From contig CABYVA010000004.1 of assembly GCA_902522325.1 (NCBI GenBank), positions 1 to 54,470 on the forward strand: 54,470 bases of DNA, given 5' to 3'. The DNA comes from an uncultured Pelagibacteraceae bacterium. Lineage in GTDB: Bacteria; Pseudomonadota; Alphaproteobacteria; Pelagibacterales; Pelagibacteraceae. The notes below the pieces were generated by a model. The model was not told the origin of the DNA. It made no database searches and worked only from the letters and a program-made list of their open reading frames with translations. Below are positions 53,091-54,470 of the stretch, piece after piece. Within the stretch, counting starts at the first letter, position 1, and every line of letters begins with the position of its first letter. A program made the position numbers and the translations under genes.

Positions 53091-54236
53091 ATGATTAAAA
53101 AAAGAATGTTTATTTTTTTATTTTTTTTAATATTAATTTCTCTAATAATATATAGGGCCCCTTGTTTGTTTACGGCAAATTCATTTAGATCTTTTTTTAA
53201 TGAAACAGCTTTTTATGTTTTTTCATCTAAAAATAATTTTTTAGATTCCATTTTTTATGTATATCCTTACGCAAGTTACTTTGAGCTATGGACAAATATA
53301 TCAGGCAAATTTGCATCATTTTTTCCAAATTATTCTTCATTAGTAGACGTGTATTTTGCTCTGATAATAAAGTTAATAATTTTTCTTTACATTTTTTATT
53401 CTAATTCAACACTTTTTTACAATGTAAAATATAAAATTCTGGCAATATGCTTAATCTTGTTTTCTCCACCGATGACACCAGAAGTGTGGTTAACAACAAT
53501 TCATTCAAAAAGCTATTTTGGTATATTTACTTTTATTTTATTATTTCAAAACTTTGACAATTTAAATACTTTTAAAAAAAGCATTTATAGATTTTTCATA
53601 GTTTTTAATGGACTTTGCAGTATTTATTCAACTATATTGTCGCCAATTTTTTTTCTTAAGTATTTATTTGAAAAAAAAAGAGATGATTTAGTAAACTTTT
53701 TATTTTCTTTAATACCTCTTATAATCAATATTATTATATTTATTAAGTATGCTTTACTTCAATCAAGTACAAATAGATTTTTATTTGATTGGAGTAAAAT
53801 TGAGAATTTTGCTTATAATATTTTAATAAGACCAATATTTGGTAGTACGATTCCTAAGTTTATTCACAATAAATTAAGTATTGAGACAGGTTCATTAATA
53901 ATTATAGCATTCTTCATAATATTTATTTTCCTAATATCTATATTGCGCAATCTTTACTTTAACAGAGATAGAGCATCACTATTAATTATTAGTTCATTTT
54001 TTTTACATTCAATTTTTATTTTTTTTGGCTCTTTATATAGTGATTTTGTTGGTGGTAGATATGCTGTAATTCCAGGCATAATTTTATTGACATTATTTAT
54101 TAGATTTTTTCAAATAGAGCAGAATAATTTATTCAAATATGTTTTAGCTTTTATTATTTTTTCCTCTTTATCAGTAGGATTGGTAGAATTTAAATATCTT
54201 ACTCCTTTGCCTGAATTGCTAAAATGTAGAATTTAG
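53091..54236 (+). CDS. Polytopic membrane protein, possibly GT-C-like
   Basis: I do not recognise this 381-residue protein. It has about ten hydrophobic segments, starting with an N-terminal helix (5-23). Between the first and second segments is a long aromatic-rich loop (about 25-80), a layout seen in GT-C glycosyltransferase-like and GtrII-like proteins. ILFSPPMTPEVWLTTIHSK near residue 121-139 could be the periplasmic catalytic-side loop. Codon use is strongly AT-biased with long Phe/Ile runs. A role in surface glycan modification is a guess from topology. Confidence 0.55.
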   Translation: MIKKRMFIFLFFLILISLIIYRAPCLFTANSFRSFFNETAFYVFSSKNNFLDSIFYVYPYASYFELWTNISGKFASFFPNYSSLVDVYFALIIKLIIFLYIFYSNSTLFYNVKYKILAICLILFSPPMTPEVWLTTIHSKSYFGIFTFILLFQNFDNLNTFKKSIYRFFIVFNGLCSIYSTILSPIFFLKYLFEKKRDDLVNFLFSLIPLIINIIIFIKYALLQSSTNRFLFDWSKIENFAYNILIRPIFGSTIPKFIHNKLSIETGSLIIIAFFIIFIFLISILRNLYFNRDRASLLIISSFFLHSIFIFFGSLYSDFVGGRYAVIPGIILLTLFIRFFQIEQNNLFKYVLAFIIFSSLSVGLVEFKYLTPLPELLKCRI

Positions 54237-54240
54237 ATGA

Positions 54241-54470
54241 TTATACAACTTTAAATATTACAAAAATTATAACAAAATAAAATATAATCCCAAATTTTCT
54301 TACTAACTTATTAATTTTAACAATTGTTTTTTGATTTTCAGTTCCTAATTTACTAGAACCAATACTTATAAATACTGGTATGCAACAGAAAATATAAGAC
54401 AACAAAATATACCAATCTAAATCAGTTAAATAGTTTAGTTTTGGTATATCGTCCTGGAACACAAAGTTGT
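54241..54470 (-). CDS. Probable pentameric ligand-gated ion channel, C-terminal end only
   Basis: The minus frame is open from the window edge (54470) to TAA at 54241, so the N-terminal part is missing; a GTG at 54462 is probably internal. The visible segment reads IPKLNYLTDLDWYILLSYIF, then hydrophobic residues, a short charged loop (SKLGTENQKTIVKINKLVRKFG) and a final 15-residue hydrophobic helix ending IFKVV. That order (P-x-x-x-YLTxLDxY, M3 helix, short loop, I-N-x-x-x-R, M4 helix, C-terminus) is the pattern of prokaryotic Cys-loop receptor homologues such as GLIC and ELIC. Identification rests on about 76 residues. Confidence 0.5.
   Translation of the reverse strand, partial: NFVFQDDIPKLNYLTDLDWYILLSYIFCCIPVFISIGSSKLGTENQKTIVKINKLVRKFGIIFYFVIIFVIFKVV

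Follow-up and report, generated by a model that had tools for sequence, protein, structure and literature searches.

A SAR11 pentameric ligand-gated ion channel gene cut by a contig end, and the protease and regulator genes beside its relatives

SAR11 bacteria are among the most abundant bacteria in the ocean. The window analysed here, a stretch of 54,470 nucleotides, is the entire contig C4 of an uncultured Pelagibacteraceae (SAR11) genome, which consists of 51 contigs of approximately 0.99 Mb in total. At its right edge, where the contig ends at 54470, the minus strand holds the 3′ part of a pentameric ligand-gated ion channel (pLGIC) gene (54241..54468). The 5′ end is cut by the contig end, and the frame is open from there to the stop at 54241, leaving 75 codons (75 amino acids) plus the stop. 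The features within it, all on the minus strand, were placed by alignment with six relatives and, for the two nearest the contig end, also with DeCLIC, the pLGIC of Desulfofustis. The end of the pore helix M2 (NFVFQDD, 54448..54468, helix limits by eye) is followed by the M2-M3 loop with its conserved proline (IPKLNYLTD, 54421..54447), in which P, L, Y, and T are invariant in the fragment and the six relatives. The transmembrane helix M3 occupies 54346..54420, a short M3-M4 loop of the prokaryotic type 54295..54345, and the C-terminal end with the transmembrane helix M4 54244..54294. The limits of these three features are approximate. The loop was placed with the additional aid of a model of L052, the nearest relative of the window, in which M3 and M4 are helices at residues 439-464 and 469-496. 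A convergent open reading frame on the plus strand (53091..54236), only 4 bases from the channel's stop, encodes a 381-residue polytopic membrane protein. This neighbour lies outside the gene module described below; it matches no Pfam family significantly, and of the 41 genomes searched, only its own contains it.

The initial annotation had called a bacterial pLGIC at the right edge, and the database comparisons agree. When the 75 residues alone were used as the query in phmmer, DeCLIC was the best solved structure (E = 3e-4), followed by GABA-A chains and chimaeras (E = 2e-3 to 0.5) and sTeLIC (E = 0.64). Pfam-A gave no significant match to this short fragment alone. The M3-loop-M4 arrangement proposed in the annotation is also found: the M2 end, the M2-M3 proline motif, M3, and M4 are all present and match DeCLIC and the GABA-A chains. 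A search of 61 related genomes with the fragment returned matches at E up to 0.01 in nine genomes (its own included) at ten places. The best of them are open frames of 491-695 residues in genomes of the same genus and the same order, and the six that were read through are all pLGICs with M1 to M4. The best relative, L052, shares 69% identity with the fragment over 72 residues without a net gap, and a profile of 40 relatives scores the fragment's place at E = 1.4e-31. Because of the DeCLIC and GABA-A matches, the full-length relatives, the L052 alignment, and the profile score, the fragment is not a chance match. In its own genome, this place is the sole match to the channel. We therefore regard it as nearly certain that the open frame is the C-terminal end of a pLGIC, which by sequence belongs to a SAR11 lineage with a PDZ-like N-terminal domain. 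The surprise voiced in the annotation, that a streamlined marine bacterium should carry such a channel, holds only in part, because Jaiteh et al. (2016) already listed Pelagibacter among the organisms with pLGICs (PMC4795631).

Complete relatives were obtained as 41 loci from one degenerate M2-M3 pattern scanned over named genomes, so that the set favours this lineage; by title, 40 are from Pelagibacteraceae and one is from Alphaproteobacteria. In the alignment of 40 proteins, a hydrophobic start precedes the N-terminal domain, after which come a domain with an FPFD loop (FPLD once) and M1 to M4. At E up to 0.1, Pfam found Neur_chan_memb in 39 of these 40 relatives and Neur_chan_LBD in just five. 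The AlphaFold model of L052 has a mean pLDDT of 82.7 and a pTM of 0.75. Its best Foldseek matches in the PDB are sTeLIC, ELIC, and DeCLIC (from E = 1.9e-17), and VIA-align aligned it over approximately 325 residues with GABA-A, glycine, and GluCl receptors at Z scores of about 24-25. At the sequence level, the E values of L052 are 2.6e-12 against DeCLIC and 5.8e-12 against ELIC. The M1-M2 region and the beta-sandwich, on which the initial annotation had made its call depend, are both present in the complete relatives, as seen in Pfam, the FPFD/FPLD loop, and the L052 model.

A glutamate at position -2′ of M2 (E407 of L052, in the GLIC/ELIC pore numbering scheme, which we take to apply here) is invariant in all 40 aligned relatives, and cation selectivity is expected because of this invariance. 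By homology, the complete protein would be a homopentamer with predicted cation selectivity, and the signal peptide and topology of the relatives suggest that the PDZ-like and ligand-binding domains are periplasmic. The cysteines invariant in the 40 relatives do not flank the FPFD loop, and the channel is of the pro-loop type rather than a strict Cys-loop receptor. In L052 they are C33, just after the signal peptide, and C203, in the ligand-binding domain, which perhaps form a disulfide. Eleven pairs of complete relatives have dN/dS values of 0.07-0.27, which indicates purifying selection among them, and dN was lowest in the membrane part in four of the five pairs split by domain. Between the window fragment and L052 (72 codons, no gap), dN is 0.20 and dS is near saturation. 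Near the PDZ-type channel, five loci also carry a second, shorter pLGIC of 396-406 residues, apparently without the PDZ-like domain (L023:8687-9901, L027:7925-9115, L030:5482-6690, L032:5485-6690, and L039:7306-8526).

The N-terminal domain was compared with known folds by profiles. One profile was made of 18 domains, all from outside the window's clade, 15 of them from channels beside a gene for the intramembrane protease PrsW and three (L037, L038, and L062) not; L036 and L045 were left out of this set, as were L047, L051, and L059 out of that of the window's clade. With the 18-domain profile, the PDZ tandem of an A. aeolicus site-2 protease homologue came up at E = 1.1e-11, together with many further PDZ chains among the 60 listed of 390 matches. 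The Pfam PDZ family was found in 12 of these 18 domains at E up to 1 and, at E up to 0.1, in 9 of the 40 proteins over their full length. Of the 20 domains of the window's clade, 17 were given to the PDZ models and none matched directly, yet hhalign aligned the domains of this clade with the 18-domain profile at E = 2e-11 and a probability of 97. On these two grounds, the N-terminal domain in the window's clade is, by profile comparison, PDZ-related but strongly diverged. VIA-align with the whole L052 model had no PDZ chain among its rows, which is uninformative because one domain fills the list. The predicted PDZ-like domain on SAR11 channels is newly seen here and would be an addition to the reported set of pLGIC N-terminal modules.

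Judged by gene order, most SAR11 relatives fall into one of two arrangements, A and B, which are newly seen here. Arrangement B is that of the window's closest relatives. It consists of genes for a caspase-like protease, a trypsin-like protease, and, on the opposite strand, a regulator resembling the CII protein of phage 186, and then the channel gene, 43-89 bases from the CII-like gene. In the tree, the 20 arrangement-B channels and the window fragment fall on the same side of a branch supported at 100/100. The fragment lies inside a 19-row set of its clade with the same support (100/100), on a long branch (1.72) with 14% of the columns filled. It shares 59-69% identity with 19 proteins, namely 18 arrangement-B channels and that of L049, a locus with a cut flank; L054 and L057 follow at 50-53%, and the remaining relatives are at 30-47%.

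All 20 window-clade loci with both the CII-like and channel genes have trypsin, and 16 have caspase; many of these loci are close relatives, so the counts are not independent, and since the seeds of the HMMs for caspase, trypsin, and the small proteins described below came from these very loci, the HMMs would be expected to find them there. In the four loci without caspase (L047, L052, L057, and L061), the contig ends less than 240 bases upstream of trypsin. More independent checks were provided by Pfam and by a motif scan, the pattern of which was itself drawn from these proteases. Pfam identified Trypsin_2 in all four trypsins given (E = 1e-24 to 8e-27) and Peptidase_C14 in all five caspases given (E = 5e-15 to 2e-24). 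The catalytic residues looked intact by eye in the three caspases and three trypsins that were read; the caspase frame of L042 is short (265 residues) and may be broken. When one caspase and one trypsin were tested by hydropathy, the N-terminus was flagged in the caspase and not in the trypsin, whose signal peptide was recognized by eye; from their sequences, both proteases look exported. The core order is kept, with one gene inserted between trypsin and the CII-like gene in L052, while the downstream flanks differ in at least five ways. The deep relatives L054 and L057 (38% identical to L052) also keep the order. A locus outside the clade, L062, has a divergent CII-like gene 256 bases from the channel and neither trypsin nor caspase. 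PrsW occurs near the channel in one of the 20 window-clade loci (L057, 1.2 kb downstream).

Several features of these loci were observed in addition. Tandem arrays of five to eight small secreted proteins (approximately 195 residues, with ADDIRDFEIEGMSIGDSLLDHF after the signal peptide) lie beside the caspase-type channels (L040:7100-10213, L046:7431-12647, L055:6754-10294, L056:7060-11328, L060:4286-7485, and L049:1072-5693). Those given to Pfam matched no family with E under 0.01; they are candidate substrates or ligands of the module. The trypsins at L044:3444-4733, L052:61-1338, and L054:3435-4757 carry C-terminal repeats of the D/E-x-N-x-D/N-G type, which look calcium-binding by eye; DeCLIC is modulated by calcium (PMC9897478). 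In L054 (5225-5313) and L057 (1833-1918), a TATAAT box lies five bases before the channel start codon, a placement that suggests a leaderless transcript. The divergent intergenic region was also viewed by eye for a dyad, with AT-rich repeats expected there.

The two proteases of arrangement B share a linker motif. Two or three copies of the pattern [STNEYKD][WY][ILV]x[KR]K are present in 19 of the 20 trypsins (one copy in L057) and in 12 of the 16 caspases; of the other four caspases, one is short (L042) and three are cut at the 5′ end (L041, L043, and L060). Of the 1171 open frames (1076 distinct) in the window and 168 loci, 32 have two copies within 40 residues. HMMs identify 20 of them as trypsins and the other 12 as caspases, so that no other protein is among them. 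All but one of the 32 are in arrangement-B loci; the exception comes from L064, where it adjoins the CII-like gene of genome G147, from which the divergent channel gene is 54 bases away. The shared tandem [S/T/K][W/Y]IxKK linker motif makes it probable that the proteases act together: they would process or bind one another, or share a common binder. None of the 12 channels and two arrangement-A trypsins tested has the motif, so it lends no support to cleavage of the channel by the proteases.

In arrangement A, the channel adjoins PrsW, mostly in the order CII-like, PrsW, and channel, in one direction with the genes touching or overlapping (e.g., L022). Our own HMMs found CII-like in 36 of the 41 loci, PrsW in 18, trypsin in 22, and caspase in 16. 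We also took a sample of 147 genomes of the order, own included, in which a channel of this profile is present in 17 (own included), a CII-like gene in 16, and a PrsW gene in 16. The channel is complete through the N-terminal domain in 11 of the 147. PrsW is beside the complete channel in seven of these 11 (with one small gene between in G141), a CII-like gene is within 3.2 kb in six, and one or both of them accompany it in nine; G039 and G050 (loci L037 and L038) have PDZ-type channels without any of these neighbours. Of the 16 genomes with a CII-like gene, 10 carry it apart from any PDZ-type channel. Co-occurrence with the channel is above chance by Fisher tests that ignore genome relatedness (4e-7 for PrsW, counted as 8/11 genomes since G147 has PrsW 7 kb away, and 2e-4 for CII-like). 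Among 385 genomes of the class, there are seven channel matches besides the own one; they start at model position 158 or later, with the N-terminal domain outside the match, and that of G417 is cut by the contig end. The PrsW proteins belong to their family, with a match of E = 3e-35, PF13367 over its cut-off, and the EExxK and His motifs conserved in the 15 proteins aligned. Judging from gene order, we think that PrsW takes the protease role in these other SAR11 lineages. At L075 (G162:C1:310800-317300), there are a CII-like gene and a small membrane gene like that of L085, with PrsW upstream (G162:C1:309815-310372); no channel was found at this locus, which is possibly an empty or swapped cassette.

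The linked regulator belongs to the family PF06892: 15 of 16 members matched at E up to 0.1 (best 1.9e-6), and at least one exceeded the curated cut-off (26.2 vs 26 bits). Its model is all-helical, and the top eight Foldseek matches are 186 CII chains, although weak ones (E = 0.11-0.17). Two CII-like proteins were checked for membrane segments and showed none. The substrates for which PrsW is known are membrane proteins, and RseP is the E. coli member of the site-2 proteases. For phage 186 CII, both FtsH and RseP act as degrading proteases (PMC7708051), a precedent for this regulator family as an intramembrane protease substrate.

We searched the window's own genome for the rest of the gene and its partners. 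The upstream part of the channel gene was not found anywhere in the assembly, nor were a CII-like gene (one candidate, at E = 0.07 only, was discarded) and PrsW found in the genome. Caspase and trypsin were not found in 80 contig-end stretches, a scan that left out contig interiors and the last 45-799 bases of contigs C32-C36. The only module-related family in these stretches is that of the small secreted proteins, a pair of which lies in tandem where contig C17 begins (L111:2-1094), the first cut by the contig end. This family occurs beside 10 of the 20 arrangement-B channels and L049 and at no other of the 61 loci scanned; the pair is thus suggestive of arrangement B in this genome, short of proof. 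Based on its closest relatives, we infer that the window's own gene would have the arrangement-B neighbours too. Near the pair, L111:1764-2501 is a voltage-gated-type ion channel gene (Ion_trans, E = 8e-32). We considered whether the window has the same site as L042 and L058, where purB and MetAP lie approximately 4.5-6 kb downstream of the channel, and rejected this because the window channel is on the other side of the pur cluster. The viral contigs and phage records searched contain no relative of the channel.

Among characterized channels, ELIC and sTeLIC share the fold of the L052 model (Foldseek E about 1e-17), and the M2 of ELIC aligns with that of L052. ELIC, sTeLIC, and GLIC, like the SAR11 relatives, lack the Cys-loop cysteines, and we know of no extra N-terminal domain in these three. 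DeCLIC (PDB 6v4a and 9ftg) resembles L052 in having both an extra N-terminal domain and an FPFD-type loop; its N-terminal domain consists of two jelly-roll lobes, whereas that of the SAR11 relatives is PDZ-like (PMC9897478, PMC12664993). The term "PDZ" is absent from the main text of both DeCLIC papers, and "operon" from that of the first. The bacterial ART-LGICs likewise combine a pLGIC with an extra periplasmic domain, and some have a conserved gene neighbourhood (PMC549065). The extra domains reported there, however, are PBP-I, Cache, and MCP-N, with no occurrence of PDZ, and the gene neighbours named are PBP-II, Cache, and a Na+/H+ symporter rather than the proteases and CII-like gene of SAR11. 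The 186 CII gene sits in a phage switch, whereas the SAR11 CII-like gene sits beside a channel on SAR11 contigs. Compared with PrsW/RseP proteolysis, the PDZ-like domain in SAR11 is on the channel rather than on the protease. We found no published link of a pLGIC with such proteases or such a regulator in the open-access literature.

As our best explanation, held tentatively and at less than even confidence, we propose that the window-clade channel is a periplasmic, protease-coupled, cation-selective sensor channel, the function of its components being predicted from their families. The secreted caspase-like and trypsin-like proteases would respond to a periplasmic signal, and their products, or cleavage at the N-terminal region of the channel, would alter its gating. 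The channel would thus be the output or readout of the protease module, with cation influx reporting to the cell or depolarising it. The cytoplasmic CII-like DNA-binding protein, divergently transcribed, would set channel expression from the short shared promoter region, and PrsW may fill the protease role in other SAR11 lineages. Channel homology, domain order, gene order, the shared motif, and purifying selection among the relatives are read directly from the sequences; cation flow and selectivity, the direction of signalling, the ligand, the control of gating by proteases, and transcriptional control of the divergent pair by the CII-like protein are predictions. A bolder version, in which the linker-joined caspase and trypsin control a PDZ-related cation channel under a CII-like switch as a SAR11 periplasmic signalling or death module, is speculative and rather unlikely.

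Other explanations have to be weighed against the protease-coupled channel. The protein may instead be an ordinary environmental chemoreceptor, whose cation channel opens when the ligand-binding domain responds to a small molecule or a change in pH, the proteases and regulator being co-inherited cargo of a variable region. Such a role was proposed in 2004 by Tasneem et al. from PBP/Cache fusions and operons (PMC549065), and it fits the CII-like genes that also occur without such channels and the two PDZ-type channels and L062 that have no proteases. Against it, the caspase-trypsin-CII-channel order is kept while the flanks change, in the deep relatives L054 and L057 as well, and the two proteases share a private motif; we consider the chemoreceptor a serious contender that is nonetheless on the unlikely side. 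Regulated intramembrane proteolysis would make the PDZ-bearing channel present a substrate to PrsW, and degradation would control how much of the CII-like activator is present, as it does for 186 CII through FtsH and RseP. This reading finds support in the order sample, where PrsW is beside 7/11 PDZ-type channels, and in the EExxK and His motifs conserved in the 15 aligned PrsW proteins. The closest PDZ match among those listed, a site-2 protease homologue, and the degradation of 186 CII by RseP (PMC7708051) are also in its favour. In the window's clade, however, PrsW is near the channel only in L057 (1/20). Moreover, PrsW substrates are, to our knowledge, membrane proteins, whereas the two CII-like proteins checked have no membrane segment, and we regard this mechanism as improbable here.

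Equally doubtful is a death or anti-phage system, in which a caspase-trypsin cascade would open the channel upon infection or envelope damage and depolarise the cell. Bacterial conflict systems repeatedly include peptidases of the caspase-like and trypsin-like kinds (PMC7159879), and with eight proteins given, PADLOC models matched the caspase (E = 3e-9 and 2e-10) and the trypsin (best E = 1.5e-18 and 5e-17) at the domain level; the variable flanks with tandem small secreted proteins are in line with this view. However, both proteases look exported, and the described systems are mostly built on ATPases or GTPases (PMC7159879), no part of which Pfam found in the subset of neighbour proteins given. 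With PADLOC, the channel, PrsW, and the small secreted protein had no match, and the CII-like protein matched only AbiEii (E = 0.004). The same survey of conflict systems never uses the term "ion channel", uses "PDZ" and "periplasm" twice each, and names SLATT as another predicted pore-former (PMC7159879). Finally, the fragment could be a decayed or chimeric artefact of the contig end, since it has just 75 codons and a long branch (1.72). We consider this very improbable because the frame is open to its stop, 72 codons align with L052 gap-free with a dN far below the nearly saturated dS, and this place is the sole match in its own genome.

Bacterial pLGICs serve as structural models for neurotransmitter receptors. 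The 2025 DeCLIC paper describes the physiological context of that channel as poorly characterised and notes that little is known of N-terminal domains (PMC12664993). The repeated linkage to proteases and a regulator provides a testable setting and a lead on the function of one SAR11 channel lineage. If the protease-coupled explanation is true, the SAR11 channel would be a protease-gated relative of neurotransmitter receptors, and its gene neighbourhood would offer a physiological setting for bacterial pLGICs.
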